Source of the DNA: Melioribacteraceae bacterium
Lineage (GTDB): Bacteria > Bacteroidota > Ignavibacteria > Ignavibacteriales > Melioribacteraceae
DNA: 64,000 nucleotides
Assembly (NCBI GenBank): GCA_016927595.1
Contig: JAFGMI010000024.1
Span: forward strand, 62,001-126,000
Reading direction: 5' to 3'
Made by a program: the position numbers and the translations under genes
In this document: in pieces, positions 11,028 to 58,610 of the stretch
How the letters are laid out: every line of letters starts with the position of its first letter
How positions within the stretch are numbered: position 1 is the stretch's first letter
Notes under the pieces: generated by a model
The model's database searches: none
The model's input: the letters and a program-made list of their open reading frames with translations, nothing else
Told to the model about the DNA's origin: nothing

Positions 11028-14000
11028 TTACTTAAAAGCTCCTTTGATAAGATCTTCCTGCTGCTTTGTACTTATTTTTGCTGAACCTGAAGCCGGGCTT
11101 GGACTTTCGGGTCGTCCGACATATAATAATTTTTGTTTCGGTTTAATTAACTCAATCAATCTCGGAAATATGAAATACCACGCGCCCATATTTTTAGGTT
11201 CTTCCTGAACCCATCTAATGTCTTTTACTGTGGGATACCTGCTTAATAAATTTTCAATAGCCATACCAGGGAAAGGATAGAGCTGTTCGATTCTGATGAT
11301 TGCTGTGTCGGTAATACTATTTAAGCTTTTGAATTTTATTAAATCATAGTATACTTTACCGCTTGTAAGAATTATTTTCTTAATACCTGTATCTGAATCG
11401 GTCAGCACATTATCAATTACCTCTTCAAAACGACCTTCGGTAAACTCTGCAATACCAGATCTGGCAGCGGGAAGTCTTAAAATACTTTTAGGAGACATAA
11501 TAACCAGAGGCTTCTCAAGTCCCGAATGAACATGCCTTCTCAGCAAATGAAAATACTGAGCGGGAGTTGAAGGGTAAGTTACGTACATGTTATCTTCGGC
11601 GCACAGGATTAAAAATCTTTCCAACCTTGCACTGCTATGTTCCGGTCCTTGCCCTTCCTGACCATGAGGAAGAAGCATAACAACTTTATTGGGCAGTTTC
11701 CATTTTTTTTCGGAGCATGAAATGAAATTGTCAATTATAACCTGAGCGCTGTTTGCAAAATCGCCGAACTGTGCTTCCCATATTACAAGTGCAAGAGGAT
11801 CAGCTACACTGTATCCGTATTCGAAACCGAGCACTGCGGCTTCAGACAACAAACTGTCCAGAGGTTCAAGAGTTGCCTGATTTTCGATGATGTTGTTATG
11901 GGGTATTATTTCTTTTTCGTTATTAATATCTGTTAGTATCAAATGTCTTTGACTGAAAGTACCGCGGGCACTATCCTGTCCGCTTAATCTTACAGGCACT
12001 CCTTCCAGTAAAAGTGAACCAAACGCAAGCGCCTCACCGAATGCCCAGTCAATGTCGGTTCTTCCTGTCAGAAATTCCTTTCTTTTTGCTATGTGCTTTT
12101 TTAACTTCGGATTCGGTGTAAAATCCGGAGGAAAAGTTGTAATAGCTTTTACTACTTTCGAGAGTTTTTCAAAACTGACACTTGTATCACTCAAGATTTT
12201 TTTTGATTTGTATTCATCCTCACTTACTGCGAGCGTTCTGTCAGGGATAAAATCATTTTTTTTCTTTTTCGAATCCTTCAGAGCCTTATCCAGTCTGCCA
12301 TATAATTCATCTTCAAGTTTTTTTATTTCCTTTTCAGTAATTATATTTTCTTTAATTAGTTTTTCCGCATAAATTTGTTTGACAGAAGGATGCTCTTTTA
12401 TTTTTTTATACATTAAAGGCTGCGTATAAACAGGATCGTCTCCTTCATTATGACCATGACGCCTGTATCCGACTACATCAATTACCACATCTTTATTGAA
12501 TTCCTGTCTGTATTCAAAAGCTAGTTTTGTAACCCATAAGCAGGCTTCCGGATCATCTCCGTTGACATGGAAAATGGGGGACTGAACCATTTTAGCGACA
12601 TCGGTGGCGTATGGCGATGAGCGCGCGTCTTCAGGTGCAGTAGTAAATCCTATCTGATTGTTTATTATAATATGAATTGTACCACCTGTTCTGTATCCTT
12701 TTAATTGCGAAAGGTTTAACGTCTCGGCTACGATACCCTGTCCGGCAAATGCAGCATCACCGTGGATTAGCAGAGGAATTATCAGTTTCCTTTCTCTATC
12801 GTGAATACGTGTTTGCTTTGCGCGCACTATCCCTTCAACTACCGGATTTACCCATTCAAGATGACTGGGATTAGAAGACACTGATATTTTAATTTTCTTA
12901 CCGTCTTCTGTTTCGTATTGACCGGTCGCACCCAGGTGATATTTTACATCGCCGGTACCCTGCGATGAATCTGGATCAATATTATCTTCAAACTCAGAGA
13001 ATATTTTATCATACGATTTACCGATGATATTGGAGAGCACATTTAATCTTCCTCTGTGTGCCATTCCCAGTATAACTTCTTTAACACCGTTTGACGCAGA
13101 AGTATTCAGCAGTTCATCCAGGACAATGATAACCGCTTCATTACCTTCTAAAGAAAACCTTTTATGCCCGATGAATTTTGTATGGAGAAAGTGTTCGAAT
13201 GACTCTGCTACTATCAGCTTTTCGATTATTCGGGTTTTAGCCTCGTTTGAAAAACCTGGTTTGTTTTTGATTGTTTCCATTTTTGACTGAAGCCAGGCTT
13301 TTTCTTCAGGATTCTGAATATGCATATATTCAGCCCCGATTTTTTCACAATAAGTTGCATGCAGGACTTCTAGTATTTGTCTTAATGTTCCGGCTTCAAG
13401 CCCTTTTAAATTTGCAGTTACAAAATTCCTGTCGTAGTCCCATATTGTAAATCCGTAAAAGGAAGGATCGAGTTCCTTGTGAAATCCAATTTTGGACGAG
13501 AGAGGATTAGTATTGGCAATTAGATGTCCTCTAACCCTGTACATATTAATCAATGCAAGTATTTGAGCCTGCTTTTCTATCTCACTCTGATTTTCGCCAG
13601 GAGCAGCCTCTTTCGTGGTTGTATCTATTCCCCAACTTACAGGATTTTGTGGTATATCGAGATCGTGAAAAATGGTTTCGTAAAAAACTTCTTCACCTCT
13701 GAGTAAACTGTCGATATATTTAAGAAATTCTCCTGATTCAGCTCCCTGTATTATCCGATGATCGTATGTACTTGTGATGTTCATTACTTTGCCGATACCC
13801 AGACTCGCAAGTGCGGACGGATTCATCGCTTTAAACTCTGCCGGATAATCAATAGCACCAATTGCTATTATGCAGCCCTGTCCGAGCATCAGACGTGGTG
13901 TAGAGGACACTGTGCCGATTCCCCCGGGATTTGTGAGCGTTACCGTTGTACGCTGAAAATCTGCAGGTTCAATATTTCCGTTCTTTACTTTTGAAATAAT

Positions 14001-14663
14001 ATTATTATACGCTTCATAAAATTCATGGAAATTCATTTTCCCTGCTTTTTTAATATTCGGAACTATCAGGGAGCGTGTACCGTCCTTTCGTTCGGTATCG
14101 ACTGCAATACCCAGATTCACATACGGTTTGTCGACTATATTAGGTTTACCTTCTACTATTGCAAATGAATTATTGATTCCGGGATATTTTTTCAGCGCTA
14201 ATACAACTGCATAGGCGACTATGTGTGTAAAAGACATTCTGCCCTTGTTCATTCTCTGGAGATGAGTGTTTATAATTCTCCTGTTTTCTTCCAGTAGTTT
14301 AACAGATATCGTTCTGAGAGAAGTGGCGGTAGGAATGTTCAGACTAGCGTCCATATTCTCAATTATTTTCGCTCCGACTCCCGTTATTACGTTTGTCCGG
14401 CCTTCGTCAGAAATCTCAAAAGAATGTGCGGATTTAAAACTATTTCTCACATTTTCCTGAGGAGAAATTACATTCATCTCTGTACTTCGTTTTTCAGATC
14501 CATTTTTATTACCAGTAATCAGGTCGAAGTATCCGTGCCACTCCGAAGAAACTGAATCCGGATTATCCAGATATTTTTCAAGTAAATCGGCGACGAAACC
14601 GAAGTTGTATCCAAATTGATTAAATAATTCCTGGTGATAAGCAGTGATATTTTTTTGTGACAT
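11028..14663 (-). CDS. kgd: Multifunctional 2-oxoglutarate decarboxylase/dehydrogenase (E2-like domain fused to E1)
   Basis: The 1211-residue product combines a short N-terminal SucA-like segment (HGYFD), a catalytic succinyltransferase-like E2 domain (about residues 80-330, ending with the active-site block STYDHRIIQG), and a thiamine-diphosphate E1 domain (residues about 370 to the end; HRGRLNVL near 530, GDAAFAGQG, NNQIGFTT, RHGHNEGDDP, and GQEGQGPEHSSARLERFL near 1000). This is the layout of mycobacterial KGD, serving the 2-oxoglutarate step of the TCA cycle. No lipoyl domain is present, so a lipoylated partner must come from another gene. The ATG at 14663 before SQKNITAYHQE is chosen; an in-frame TTG at 14699 exists. 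Neither has a clear ribosome-binding site. Confidence 0.93.
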   Translation of the reverse strand: MSQKNITAYHQELFNQFGYNFGFVADLLEKYLDNPDSVSSEWHGYFDLITGNKNGSEKRSTEMNVISPQENVRNSFKSAHSFEISDEGRTNVITGVGAKIIENMDASLNIPTATSLRTISVKLLEENRRIINTHLQRMNKGRMSFTHIVAYAVVLALKKYPGINNSFAIVEGKPNIVDKPYVNLGIAVDTERKDGTRSLIVPNIKKAGKMNFHEFYEAYNNIISKVKNGNIEPADFQRTTVTLTNPGGIGTVSSTPRLMLGQGCIIAIGAIDYPAEFKAMNPSALASLGIGKVMNITSTYDHRIIQGAESGEFLKYIDSLLRGEEVFYETIFHDLDIPQNPVSWGIDTTTKEAAPGENQSEIEKQAQILALINMYRVRGHLIANTNPLSSKIGFHKELDPSFYGFTIWDYDRNFVTANLKGLEAGTLRQILEVLHATYCEKIGAEYMHIQNPEEKAWLQSKMETIKNKPGFSNEAKTRIIEKLIVAESFEHFLHTKFIGHKRFSLEGNEAVIIVLDELLNTSASNGVKEVILGMAHRGRLNVLSNIIGKSYDKIFSEFEDNIDPDSSQGTGDVKYHLGATGQYETEDGKKIKISVSSNPSHLEWVNPVVEGIVRAKQTRIHDRERKLIIPLLIHGDAAFAGQGIVAETLNLSQLKGYRTGGTIHIIINNQIGFTTAPEDARSSPYATDVAKMVQSPIFHVNGDDPEACLWVTKLAFEYRQEFNKDVVIDVVGYRRHGHNEGDDPVYTQPLMYKKIKEHPSVKQIYAEKLIKENIITEKEIKKLEDELYGRLDKALKDSKKKKNDFIPDRTLAVSEDEYKSKKILSDTSVSFEKLSKVVKAITTFPPDFTPNPKLKKHIAKRKEFLTGRTDIDWAFGEALAFGSLLLEGVPVRLSGQDSARGTFSQRHLILTDINNEKEIIPHNNIIENQATLEPLDSLLSEAAVLGFEYGYSVADPLALVIWEAQFGDFANSAQVIIDNFISCSEKKWKLPNKVVMLLPHGQEGQGPEHSSARLERFLILCAEDNMYVTYPSTPAQYFHLLRRHVHSGLEKPLVIMSPKSILRLPAARSGIAEFTEGRFEEVIDNVLTDSDTGIKKIILTSGKVYYDLIKFKSLNSITDTAIIRIEQLYPFPGMAIENLLSRYPTVKDIRWVQEEPKNMGAWYFIFPRLIELIKPKQKLLYVGRPESPSPASGSAKISTKQQEDLIKGAFK

Positions 14664-14926
14664 TTTCGGCTTTTTCTGTTTGTTGTTAGATTGTAACAAT
14701 ATAAAAGGATAAAATGTTCTATTCCAGGGGAAATAAGATTGTGAAAAAGATACACGGAAAGTTAAATAAAATAACTGAATATTCAGTAAAATTATCTGAA
14801 GTCATTGAATTTTTGATGATAATTAAATTGGTTAATACATCCTTTTTAGTAACTCCACTTTTTTGAGCACCGGTTGTAACATTTTAACCCGGTATTCAAT
14901 CTAAGAATTAGTTAAACCAGAAATTT

Positions 14927-15442
14927 ATGGAAGAATCAGGATTAGTAATCAGCTGCGAAAAGTGGAGAAAACGCAGCTTTTAGAAGAATATATGAGGCTA
15001 ATGTTTCCGGTTTCTGAAGCAATTCAGCTGCGATGATGATTCAGTAGCTGATTGGGTTCAGACTGCATTTATCATAGTATTCGGCAAAATTGATCAATTC
15101 AGAGGAGAATCAAAATTTTCAACATGGTTATTCGGTATAGCTTTGAATGAAATGAAAAAAGACAGATTCAGAACAGGTAAAATTTATTTCACAGAACTGA
15201 ATGCAGCGGAAGGAATTCCGGTTGAAGAATTCGAACTTGAAATAAGTAATGAACTGAAATTTTACCTTAAGGATATTGATGAGTTAAAACGTACCGTGTT
15301 TTTATTAAAAGAGATTGAAGGCTACTCTCACCAAGAAATTGCTGAAGTTCTGAATATTAGCGTTTCATTCTCCCGGACAATTCTATGCAGAACAAAAGAA
15401 TTACTCAGTAGAAGAATTGAATCGGACGGAGGTATTAAATGA
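14927..15442 (+). pseudogene. ECF sigma factor gene interrupted by two compensating frameshifts
   Basis: Reading from ATG 14927 gives MEESGLVISCEK, then a one-base shift is needed in the GAAAAG run (14957-14962) to continue as GENAAFRRIYEANV, and a second shift back at the TTT of 15004-15006 to continue as FRFLKQF. The rest then reads cleanly: region 2 (DWVQTAF, FRGESKFSTWLFGIALN) and region 4 (LLKEIEGYSHQEIAEVLNIS), ending at 15442. The first and last parts share one frame; between them that frame has TAG at 14981 and TAA at 14999. As written no full sigma factor can be made by normal translation; the longest clean product (TTG 15143) lacks most of region 2. The stop overlaps the next ATG by 4 nt. 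Natural decay, sequencing error or recoding are all possible. Confidence 0.8.
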
Positions 15443-15945
15443 AAAAGTACTCAGATTATTATGATACCAGCGATTATCACTCACCTGTATTAAAAAACGG
15501 AATGTGGATGAAAATCCGGGATAGTATTGCGGAACCGGCAGACCGTAATTTGTTCAAAATTGATCTCAGAAGCTATGCCCTCGGCATTATGTCGGCAATT
15601 ATAATTTCGTTTAGCATTGCGGGGATTCGAAGTATCTATATGACTTTTTATAACGATTCTCTGCCTGAACTCGTACGTATGAATAAAACCTACTTAACTG
15701 CTACTGAAGGATTGGAAAAACTTGTTGCTGAGCGGATCAGACAAAGTGAGATAAAAACTCCCGATGAGGGTATACTAAACAAAAATGAAAGCCTGGCAAG
15801 TATCAACAAAGCAATTCAGGAAATTCAGATCAGTGCTTTTTATAAAGATTATTCCAGTGTAAAGCAGCAAAGATTAAAAACTCTTTACCTTATGAAACCG
15901 CAAATACTTGATGAGATAATTTCTTTAGAGGGAGAACCAAAATGA
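15439..15945 (+). CDS. Single-pass membrane protein in the anti-sigma position
   Basis: A 168-residue protein with a charged N-terminal cytoplasmic part (about 45 residues), one membrane segment (IMSAIIISFSIAGI, about residues 50-70) and a helical C-terminal part of about 95 residues expected outside the membrane. It overlaps the sigma gene by ATGA and the next gene by ATGA, so the three are a translationally coupled operon. The position and topology are those of an anti-sigma factor. However, there is no cysteine in the protein, hence no HxxxCxxC zinc anti-sigma motif, and no family is recognised. The role is inferred from context only. Confidence 0.65.
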   Translation: MKKYSDYYDTSDYHSPVLKNGMWMKIRDSIAEPADRNLFKIDLRSYALGIMSAIIISFSIAGIRSIYMTFYNDSLPELVRMNKTYLTATEGLEKLVAERIRQSEIKTPDEGILNKNESLASINKAIQEIQISAFYKDYSSVKQQRLKTLYLMKPQILDEIISLEGEPK

Positions 15946-17348
15946 AAAAGATATTATTATTGTTTCTGCTGATGGCATCTTTATGTTCAACAGCAACAGA
16001 AAAAAAACATATTAAAAAATCCTTTCAGATTAATCCGCAGAAATTAATTGAATTTATGGGCGAATCGGGACTTAAAGTAAAATTCCGATCCTGGGCTAAG
16101 GATTCGGCTATGGTGGAGTTAAATGTTAAAATCAAAAGCTCTGAAAAAGAATTCGAAAGGGAATATATTGAAAGCTTCGATGTTGTATTCCGGGAAAACG
16201 ATTTTCATTATACAATCGGAATTGAAGCGATCGATTATAATCCCTCAATCAGTATTTGGGATATTTTAACTCTGGATTTTAAACGTTCAGTAAGTATTGA
16301 TATATCCGGATATATTTATATCCCCGATAAGAACAGTCTCTCTGCGCGGATACGATACAGTGAAATAAATCTCGAAGGTATGTCCGGGAAACTGAATATT
16401 ATCGGAAGGGGAAATACAATCAGACTTTCTGATTGTACTGAAGTCCGGGAAATAGAAAATGATTACGGCGAGGTATATATCAAAGACTGCCGTTCACCCG
16501 GTTTGAAGCTTTCAACTCGCAGTTCAAAGGTAAGAATAGATTCATTTACAGGAAGGCTTGATATCAATGCACCATATACTGAAATCTATGCTGAACGATG
16601 CGACGGTGACGTAGATATTAGATCAGGAAGTTCCAGGATCGAGGCAGAAACTGTTTCGGGGAGTCTGCACATTGATGCACAATACGCGGATATTAAACTT
16701 CACCAGATACGCGATTCGGTAATTATCCTTACACGAAGTGCGATCGCTGATATATCAAACATCAGCGGGTTGAGGTTTAAAGGTCCTTATTCGAAATTGT
16801 TCGTCTGCGACATATCCGGGGAAAGATTCAATGAGACAGTAATTGAAAACCGTTCGGGTAGCATTGAACTGCACAGGATAAATAGCAATCTGAGAATAGA
16901 CGATGAGTATTCGCAGATAAATCTAGATTCTGTAAATGGGAATGTTTTATTGAAATCGCGAAGTAACGAAATAAAGTGCAGGTATCTGAAGGGAAATTGG
17001 GAGTCAGATACCAGATACAGCAATATAATTCTGGAGGATGCAAAGTCACGAAAACTTATGATTAAAAATATTAGCGGCTCGGTAGAAACTGAAATGGTTT
17101 CGGAGCCGGAATATGTGGATATTTCAAATAAGCATGGCGATGTGAATTTAATGTTAAATAAGAGTTTTTCAGGAAAGTTCAATTTAGAAGTTGAATACGG
17201 CAAAATAAATTCGGATTTTCCACTTACATTAAATTATTATAATAGTAATGGTAAAAAATCGATTGCTTCAGAAGTCGGCAACAGTAACAATATTATCAAA
17301 ATTAAAAACAGATCTGGAAGCATCAACCTGCTTAAACACTCCGATTAA
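15942..17348 (+). CDS. Exported DUF4097-like beta-strand repeat protein
   Basis: The 468-residue protein has a signal peptide (ending near LCSTATEKK) followed by about 130 residues of mixed sequence and then repeated short beta-strand units of roughly 36-40 residues, each with a pattern such as STRSSKVRIDSFTGRLDI, then a 'Y(T/A/S)xI' strand (APYTEIYAE, AQYADIKLH, DEYSQINLD, TRYSNIILE). This matches the DUF4097/DUF2807 type of adhesin-like beta-helix. It is the last gene of the sigma triad, so it is likely an envelope target or sensor of that system. Such proteins are often found beside ECF sigma genes in Bacteroidota. Exact function is unknown. A strong terminator follows. Confidence 0.75.
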   Translation: MKKILLLFLLMASLCSTATEKKHIKKSFQINPQKLIEFMGESGLKVKFRSWAKDSAMVELNVKIKSSEKEFEREYIESFDVVFRENDFHYTIGIEAIDYNPSISIWDILTLDFKRSVSIDISGYIYIPDKNSLSARIRYSEINLEGMSGKLNIIGRGNTIRLSDCTEVREIENDYGEVYIKDCRSPGLKLSTRSSKVRIDSFTGRLDINAPYTEIYAERCDGDVDIRSGSSRIEAETVSGSLHIDAQYADIKLHQIRDSVIILTRSAIADISNISGLRFKGPYSKLFVCDISGERFNETVIENRSGSIELHRINSNLRIDDEYSQINLDSVNGNVLLKSRSNEIKCRYLKGNWESDTRYSNIILEDAKSRKLMIKNISGSVETEMVSEPEYVDISNKHGDVNLMLNKSFSGKFNLEVEYGKINSDFPLTLNYYNSNGKKSIASEVGNSNNIIKIKNRSGSINLLKHSD

Positions 17349-45561: not shown

Positions 45562-45598
45562 CAAAAAAGATTTTTAATCAAATTTGGGAGCACATTTT

Positions 45599-45880
45599 AT
45601 GACACTAGATGCACTCGGAATGATTGAAACCAAAGGATTGGTTGGTTCGATTGAAGCCGCTGATGCTATGGTTAAAGCTGCAAAGGTTGAGCTTATCGGC
45701 AAAGAGACAATCGGCGGTGGTTATGTTACTGTAATGGTCCGTGGTGATGTCGGTGCAGTTAAAGCTGCCACAGATGCCGGCGCAGCAGCTGCACAGAGAG
45801 TGGGTGAATTGGTTTCGGTTCATGTAATTCCGCGTCCTCATTCAGATGTAGAACTTATTCTTCCCCAAAAAGCAAAATAG
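45599..45880 (+). CDS. BMC shell hexamer protein (PduA/EutM type)
   Basis: A 93-residue single-BMC-domain shell protein that forms hexameric tiles of a bacterial microcompartment. It is very close to the family consensus: [24 protein letters not shown], then [43 protein letters not shown]. The pore loop is IGGGYV, small and glycine-rich, like those that pass small polar metabolites. ATG 45599 with GGGAG 8 nt upstream is the real start rather than TTG 45584. It is followed after 5 nt by a second shell gene. No vertex protein or core enzyme is adjacent. Confidence 0.95.
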
Positions 45881-45885
45881 TTTGA

Positions 45886-46641
45886 ATGATGCAACTCGCT
45901 TTGGGTTTAATAGAAACGAAAGGATTAATAGGTGCTATTGAAGCTGCCGATGCCATGGCAAAGGCAGCAAATGTAAGGATAATAAATAAAGAGAAAAGCA
46001 CGGCTGCCTTGGTAACTATTAAAATTGAAGGTGAAGTAGCAGCAGTTAAATCTGCCGTTGAAGCCGGTGCCGCGGCTGCTCAGCGGGTTGGACAATTACT
46101 CAGCGCACATGTAATCCCACGTCCTCATTCAGAAATTGATTTCATTGTTGAAGGTAAAGAAAGAATCTTGTCACCTTCTCCGGGTGAAACCGGGATGGTT
46201 AAAAAAGCTGATAAACCCTCAAAGAGGAGTGCTAAAAAAGCTGAAGTAAAGCAGGCGGCGGCAGAAGAATTTAAAGAGATAGTTGAGGAAAATTCATTTC
46301 CGGAGCCTGTAAAGGAGGATATCAAAGAGGAGATATTTCAGGAAGAAGATGTAATTGATACAGCAACATTAGAATCCGGACAAATACCAACAGAAACTCC
46401 AGCAACCAAATCACACCTCGAAATTCTTCGCGAACAGGCAAAACAGGAATTATCCGGCGAGAGCGGGGAAGAATCTGACCAAGAAGCCGTTACTAACCTG
46501 CCGGAATTATCTGAGCTTGAAAAATTGAATGTACATGAATTAAGAAAACTCGCAAGAAGTTTAAAATCGTTCCCGATAAAGGGAAGGGATATCTCGAAAG
46601 CGAACAGACAAACTTTGCTTGATTACTTCAAAGAAATATAA
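45886..46641 (+). CDS. BMC shell protein with an extended tail ending in a Rho_N/SAP-like motif
   Basis: The 251-residue protein starts with a BMC domain (residues 1 to about 90, ending [12 protein letters not shown]), followed by an acidic-basic, low-complexity linker rich in Glu, Lys, Pro and Ala (about 95-205) and a C-terminal segment (about 207-251) with LEKLNVHELRKLARSL and NRQTLLDYFKEI, resembling Rho N-terminal or SAP helix-loop-helix units that bind nucleic acid. The pore loop reads KSTAALV instead of IGGG, implying different pore chemistry. Tails on BMC hexamers are known (EutK has a helix-turn-helix), but I do not recognise this one. It starts 5 nt after the first shell gene. Confidence 0.85.
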   Translation: MMQLALGLIETKGLIGAIEAADAMAKAANVRIINKEKSTAALVTIKIEGEVAAVKSAVEAGAAAAQRVGQLLSAHVIPRPHSEIDFIVEGKERILSPSPGETGMVKKADKPSKRSAKKAEVKQAAAEEFKEIVEENSFPEPVKEDIKEEIFQEEDVIDTATLESGQIPTETPATKSHLEILREQAKQELSGESGEESDQEAVTNLPELSELEKLNVHELRKLARSLKSFPIKGRDISKANRQTLLDYFKEI

Positions 46642-57516: not shown

Positions 57517-58386
57517 ATGGCTTCTTCAATAATTGACAGGATTGTCTCACAGGTATTTACGGAGAAAGCTTTAAAGGATTTTTACTGTGTGGGCGATACG
57601 TGCCAGGGCTGGGAAAGAAACGTTATTGATCAGCCGGAAACAGTTAAAAAGATAATTGAAAATGGTGCTGATAGAATTGCTGCCGGGATTGGTGTAGGCG
57701 GGCATATTGAAGATGTTGGGATAGCAAGAATGATCGATCATACTTTATTAAAGGCAGAAGCCACGGAAGATGAAATGATCAAATTATGCGATGAGGCTAA
57801 AATATATGAGTTCGCTTCGGTTTGTGTAAATCCGTGTTATGTTAAACTATGTTCCCAGCAACTTAAAGGCAGCAAGGTTAAAGTATGCACTGTAATCGGT
57901 TTCCCGCTGGGAGCAACAACAACTGAAATAAAGAGAAAGGAAGCTGAGCAGGCGATTGAAAACGGGGCTCAGGAAGTCGACATGGTTATAAATATCGGTA
58001 TGCTTAAACAGGGTAAATACGACTATGTGTTTACTGACATTAATCAGGTAGCTCTGGCGGCGAAAAGAAACAGAGCAATATTAAAGGTAATTATTGAAAC
58101 GGCACTGCTTACTGATGAAGAAAAAGTAAAAGCCTGTGTTATAAGCAAGGAAGCCAAAGCCGATTTTGTGAAAACCTCCACGGGGTTCAGCAAAGGCGGT
58201 GCAACCGCAAGTGATGTTGCTCTGATGAAATACGTCGTAGGAAGTTCTGTCGGCGTTAAAGCCTCCGGCGGTATAAGATCACGTGAAGATGCGCAGGCAA
58301 TGATTGAAAGCGGAGCTGACAGGATAGGTGCCAGTGCGAGCGTAAAAATAGTAGCCGGCAATGATACGGGAGAACGTGGTTACTAG
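57517..58386 (+). CDS. deoC: Deoxyribose-phosphate aldolase with an encapsulation-peptide-like N-terminal extension
   Basis: DeoC cleaves 2-deoxyribose-5-phosphate to glyceraldehyde-3-phosphate and acetaldehyde. The 289-residue protein keeps the family core from about residue 70 ([12 protein letters not shown]), the Schiff-base Lys219 in FVKTSTGF, and Lys248 in GVKASGGIR. It carries about 70 extra residues at the N terminus. The first 18 ([16 protein letters not shown]) form an amphipathic helix with paired hydrophobic residues every three to four positions, much like peptides that send enzymes into microcompartments. Shell genes lie 12 kb upstream, and DeoC is a known member of sugar-phosphate microcompartment types. 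Encapsulation is an inference. It follows folD by 11 nt. Confidence 0.92.
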
Positions 58387-58610
58387 TGGTACTCGATTTA
58401 ATCGTAAAAGATACAGGAGACGGGTATACCGCTGAAATTCCCTCGATAAACGGATGTGAGAGTTGGGCACATGAAGAGGAGACAGCCATAAATAATGTCG
58501 TTGAACTGCTCCGCTACTATTTAAACCTTCCGGGGGATCTTAAAATTATAATTGATAAAGCCCGGGGAACAAGTAAAAAGCAAATCTTTAAACTAGTGTT
58601 CGATAAGTAA
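58386..58610 (+). CDS. HicB-like small protein (orphan, no HicA seen)
   Basis: A 74-residue protein of the HicB/UPF0150 type: the strand-turn-strand pattern GYTAEIPSINGCESWAHEEETAINNVVELLRYYL matches the partial RNase H-like fold of HicB antitoxins. A HicA toxin gene, normally adjacent, is absent, and the C-terminal DNA-binding extension of many HicB proteins is missing. It starts at GTG 58386, overlapping the last base of the deoC stop, and ends directly at trmH. It is a housekeeping-operon passenger, or a stand-alone regulator. Confidence 0.65.
   Translation: MVLDLIVKDTGDGYTAEIPSINGCESWAHEEETAINNVVELLRYYLNLPGDLKIIIDKARGTSKKQIFKLVFDK

Follow-up and report, generated by a model that had tools for sequence, protein, structure and literature searches.

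Does this locus encode a working ECF sigma factor, has the gene been inactivated, or does its broken appearance come from the assembly or from an unusual mode of expression? The locus lies at 14927-15442 of the window, by which we mean the whole stretch of 64,000 nucleotides analysed here, and the gene was examined together with its relatives, its promoter and its operon.

Reading frame of the sigma gene

In the ORF reading of the window, the frame of the sigma gene starts at ATG 14927 and is closed by TAG 14981-14983, after 18 codons. A homologous, sigma-like reading is picked up in the next frame and runs to TGA 15015-15017, and the original frame is regained at 15005, lying open from 15002 to TGA 15440-15442. 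The gene was divided into the following parts:

14927..14983, + strand: 5' part of the sigma gene, with ATG, 18 codons and the premature TAG; its start is close to the N-termini of the relatives
14949..15017, + strand: middle part, the start of region 2, in the next frame, with TGA 15015-15017 at its end; reads SAAKSGENAAFRRIYEANVSG
15005..15442, + strand: remainder of the ECF sigma gene (most of region 2, linker, region 4), 145 codons in the original frame, with Pfam matches and no stop

These results agreed with the initial annotation, according to which a sigma gene can be read only by switching frame and then back, and the sequence 3' of the second shift is intact. The middle part resembles KxGxxxAFKKLYDxNV of the sigma family, and its frame contained no stop between the two lesion sites. 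A profile search of whole genomes counted three stops inside the window's sigma gene, and no second copy of this sigma factor was present in the window's genome at E ≤ 1e-25. The open half matched Sigma70_r2 (1.1e-8) and Sigma70_r4_2 (8.1e-10) in Pfam, both above the cut-off, with the first match ending at residue 54 and the second starting at residue 93; in the intact relative L005, both domains lie within 177 aa. As described in the available portion of one classification paper, ECF sigma factors have region 2 and region 4 domains only, a feature kept in later classifications (PMC8103513), and region 2 and region 4 only were found in the window's open half. The sigma stop (TGA 15440) shares 4 nt with the start of the next gene.

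The profile search detected a sigma orthologue in 11 of 79 family genomes (E ≤ 2.6e-57; next match, 1.1e-31). The gene was stop-free in 10 of these 11 and interrupted in the window's genome only. For the wider relatives, the best 44 of 80 loci were used (L055-L098), the 36 weaker ones being left out, and all 44 carried a single open frame of 170-260 aa. The shift was shared by none of the 10 other strong family orthologues and by none of these best 44 wider relatives. The window's genome stands in one family with the genomes G001, G015 and G016, and G001 and G002 belong to its genus.

Size and place of the two lesions

The first shift had been assigned to the GAAAAG run at 14957-14962. Both frames were scored against a profile built from 32 relatives (loci L055-L086), which placed the switch at 14949 (29.4 bits), 14952 (28.3 bits) or 14955 (27.1 bits), whereas 14958 scored only 22.3 bits and 14961 lay outside the best five (19.6 bits or less). 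With the switch at 14949-14955, the GAAAAG run reads K-S-G, as in the sigma family. Lesion 1 as two missing bases scored lower (19.9 vs 29.4 bits) and was rejected. The two lesions were delimited as follows:

14946..14957, + strand: most likely site of lesion 1, net +1 compared with the relatives (both-frame profile scoring, best switch 14949-14955)
15002..15011, + strand: lesion 2, about 10 nt short compared with the relatives (landmark distance; best breakpoint 15005, with 15002 and 15008 near-equal)

For lesion 2, we measured how far the residue preceding the WVQ-type motif lies from the A in the AFxxLY-type motif in 43 of the best 44 relatives, L095 being missed by the landmark pattern. 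This spacing was 74 nt in the window, compared with 84 nt (28 residues) in 41 of the 43 relatives and 90 nt (30 residues) in the other two. Because of the difference between 74 and 84 nt, lesion 2 is a shortfall of about 10 nt, with three to four residues missing from a stretch of nearly fixed length. The return to the original frame near 15004-15006 was confirmed, whereas the description of both events as one-base shifts had to be given up. Since lesion 2 measures about 10 nt and lesion 1 maps best before the A run, the lesions are not two one-base homopolymer slips; such slips were ruled out at lesion 2 by the landmark spacing and weakened at lesion 1 by the profile scores.

An exact 10-nt direct repeat, TCAGCTGCGA, was observed at 14949-14958 and 15024-15033, one copy lying at the likely site of lesion 1. 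A repeat of 10 nt occurred in about 3% of resampled sequences and in none of the 44 relatives (best 44 of 80 loci) within a stretch of the same size. Template switching through the repeat is suggestive at most and was not retained.

Conservation of the open half

The remainder of the gene had been called perfectly conserved. In a column test with the same 32 loci, L055-L086, changes were found at 4 of 37 near-invariant columns of the open half, compared with 0 to 5 in those 32 intact loci. Identity to the nearest relative is about 52% over this half, so this wording was too strong; at that identity the relative is too distant for dating the break. Two of the altered columns are adjacent in region 2 (K to I and A to V), which hints mildly at relaxation. 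Differences from the G001 orthologue were 0.35, 0.26 and 0.61 for the three codon positions, and on this sequence comparison they remain coding-like. Because the open half shows no unusual decay, the break is either recent or not real; the same absence of unusual decay is also expected from an assembly error or from a gene that is still used.

Predicted promoter

A predicted promoter of ECF type is kept at the broken locus:

14875..14904, + strand: predicted ECF-type promoter, TGTAAC-N17-AATCTAA

Of 44 relatives (best 44 of 80), 35 carry the pattern TGTARC-N17-NRTC[ACT]AA in front of the sigma gene, including records from Ignavibacteria and Balneolaceae, compared with 0.045 of 44 expected by chance under first-order Markov resampling, for a pattern that was fitted after viewing these sequences. 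The box spacing was 17 nt in all 35 pattern-bearing relatives, with 15 to 19 nt allowed. The window and many relatives carry AAC within the TGTARC -35 box; other relatives carry AGC. The -10 box reads AATCTAA in the window, CATCTAA in most pattern-bearing relatives and CGTCTAA in some. In the accessible text of PMC8103513, the early ECF criteria comprise a co-transcribed cognate anti-sigma factor and an autoregulated promoter with AAC in the -35 box, as well as CGT in the -10 box, which was later dropped as a defining feature. This CGT is absent from the -10 box in the window.

The window's genome showed no genome-wide excess of the promoter pattern, with five matches (one of them this site) against six for the reversed control, and a genome-wide regulon under the pattern was dropped from consideration. 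The corresponding counts were 17 vs 10 in G001, which is a small excess, and 7 vs 5 in G002. The sigma factor probably controlled mainly its own operon, as judged from these sequence matches, and since there is no genome-wide excess of promoter sites, the main effect of its loss is expected on this operon.

Partner gene, DUF4097 gene and operon

Two genes are coupled to the sigma gene:

15439..15945, + strand: partner gene, 168 aa, with one predicted membrane helix; probable membrane anti-sigma factor; 4-nt overlap with the sigma stop
15942..17348, + strand: DUF4097 (Toastrack) protein, 468 aa, third gene of the operon (Pfam PF13349, 1.7e-14)

Both reading frames are open, as the initial annotation had stated. 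The 11 of 79 family genomes that have the sigma orthologue are also the ones that carry the partner gene, and an ORF with a hydrophobic stretch directly follows the sigma gene in all 44 relatives (best 44 of 80 loci). The partner proteins of 38 of these 44 were aligned with the window's, and Y8 and W23 were invariant; the six omitted include L075 (135 aa only) and L098 (N-terminus unlike the others). An N-terminal signature, aromatic-Y...W, is conserved in the 38 aligned relatives. The partner protein matched no family in Pfam or NCBIfam and no solved structure at E ≤ 0.001; its structure model reached a mean pLDDT of 80.1 but a pTM of 0.39, and no fold is assigned to it. The partner is probably an anti-sigma factor of a family undescribed so far. 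In G001, one TAA lies within the profile match of the partner, yet the open frame is 171 aa, as for an intact gene.

The operon is flanked by a 2-oxoglutarate dehydrogenase gene upstream and a histidine kinase gene downstream. The dehydrogenase, at 11028-14699, is fused with an acyltransferase domain in a single protein of 1223 aa. In G001, the order is dehydrogenase, sigma, partner, DUF4097 (orthologue in the same place, tblastn 2e-107) and a partial kinase gene at the contig end, with all of the operon present. In G002, a gap of about 0.5 kb separates the dehydrogenase gene from the kinase gene (G002:C40:5900-9500, L176), and no credible trace of the operon was found in the gap (best tblastn match, E 0.23). 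The three genomes of the genus compared here thus carry the module whole (G001), broken (the window's genome) and not at all (G002).

Elsewhere in the window, two consecutive genes with BMC (bacterial microcompartment shell) domains were observed at 45584-46641 (4.1e-30 and 8.9e-26). A HicB-like identity considered for 58386-58610 was dropped, the Pfam match being absent.

Discussion

We consider that the locus is, with a probability of roughly 78%, a recently inactivated (pseudogenised) ECF sigma factor whose lesions are known from a single assembly. A disrupted frame was found beside intact orthologues, as in a pseudogene, and the uninterrupted frame of a working sigma factor was not found (stop after 18 codons, two lesions); the window's copy would be a remnant of an ECF sigma member, not a working member. 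The young pseudogene was one option offered in the initial annotation, and it is favoured by the intact relatives, the conserved downstream half, the retention of the predicted promoter and the lack of the operon in G002. The ancestor would have headed an autoregulated operon of three genes, for the sigma factor, a single-span membrane anti-sigma factor and the DUF4097 protein, and this operon probably served envelope stress. Near codon 8 the gene would have gained one base net, and the first helix of region 2 would separately have lost about 10 nt; with the sigma gene put out of frame in this way, translation would stop after 18 codons. If, as we infer, the promoter is read by its own sigma factor and the partner is the anti-sigma factor, the operon would be poorly expressed without sigma, and the module may be in the course of being lost.

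An assembly in which a normal gene of the organism was given both lesions, for example through low coverage or a mixture of strains, is an unlikely explanation and the most serious of the competing ones. It would fit the fact that the promoter, the partner genes and the 3' half are all well preserved, and the exact 10-nt repeat flanks the region. However, one lesion measures about 10 nt and is no homopolymer miscount, and the other maps best outside the A run, which also speaks against the specific proposal of two homopolymer errors. The assembly comprises 59 contigs at 99.79% completeness, and the locus is internal to one of 180 kb. Frames elsewhere in this genome argue in the same direction: 19 of 20 Sigma70_r2 matches lie within open frames of at least 179 aa, compared with 146 aa for the window's match, a comparison that uses frame length only, the stop count being 'none' for the window's match too. 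Likewise, 75 of 79 HATPase_c matches contained no stop, and of the four with a stop inside, three lie in open frames of 447-749 aa and one in a 52-aa frame. By eye, the other genes in the window's ORF map also look unsplit. The 52-aa frame belongs to a HATPase_c fragment with two stops (G000:C25:12947-13069), possibly another broken gene of the window's genome.

It appears highly improbable that recoding or internal initiation still lets the cell make a sigma factor or a regulatory fragment with region 4, which would leave the lesions tolerated rather than inactivating. A shortened product from an internal start at TTG 15143 or ATG 15152, acting for instance as a region-4 decoy for the anti-sigma factor, would profit from the normally conserved open half, the open frame from 15002 to 15442 and the retained 4-nt overlap; the first ATG, GTG or TTG of the open frame, however, is at 15143, so most of region 2 would be lost, and none of the 44 relatives (best 44 of 80) is reduced in this way. 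We give this version very little credence, and still less to programmed recoding, in which the ribosome would shift once at each site and make a sigma factor shorter by three to four residues. Recoding agrees with two frame changes that cancel and with a middle frame free of stops between the sites. Against it, the sigma gene is single-framed in 10/10 other strong family orthologues and 44/44 wider relatives (best 44 of 80), the shortfall takes residues from a stretch of nearly fixed length, a shortfall of 10 nt is unexplained by a ribosomal shift, and no standard slippery heptamer was seen by eye. Because all other orthologues examined read in one frame, recoding, a further option of the initial annotation, is without support; our search found no literature joining programmed frameshifting with an ECF sigma factor.

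With inactivation of the sigma gene, our preferred reading, the case would be one of ordinary and fairly recent gene loss and would involve no novel mode of decoding. It would be a probable local stress circuit caught early, with the sigma factor gone and the promoter, the probable anti-sigma factor and the target gene remaining. Of greater use is a by-product of the analysis, the conserved operon, in which an ECF sigma factor, a membrane partner with one helix and no family name, and a shared promoter pattern occur together in Ignavibacteria and Balneolaceae; the DUF4097 protein belongs to this operon in the window's genus and several relatives.

The locus resembles known systems of an ECF (group IV) sigma factor and a membrane anti-sigma factor in its domain content (regions 2 and 4 only), the AAC of its predicted -35 box, the promoter pattern before its own operon and an overlapping downstream gene whose product has one predicted membrane helix. 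It differs in that the frame of the window's copy is broken, so that no working sigma factor is expected from it, and in that the partner has no Pfam or NCBIfam family. As in frameshift pseudogenes of accessory regulators, one lineage is disrupted and all other examined orthologues are intact; unlike them, the window's gene has no unusual decay beyond the lesions and would be young or not real. No literature joining an ECF sigma factor, DUF4097 and an anti-sigma factor was found. In the accessible portion of the Toastrack (DUF4097) paper, roles in membrane-linked stress response are predicted and, for one gene context, a sigma factor in operonic linkage is named (PMC11237479). The window's DUF4097 gene likewise stands beside a transcription regulator, as in the Toastrack envelope-stress neighbourhoods described there, whereas its link runs via an ECF sigma factor and an unnamed partner, with 2-oxoglutarate dehydrogenase and histidine kinase genes as neighbours. 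The Toastrack domain is predicted in that text to be intracellular (PMC11237479), whereas the window's DUF4097 protein starts, by eye, with an apparent signal peptide.
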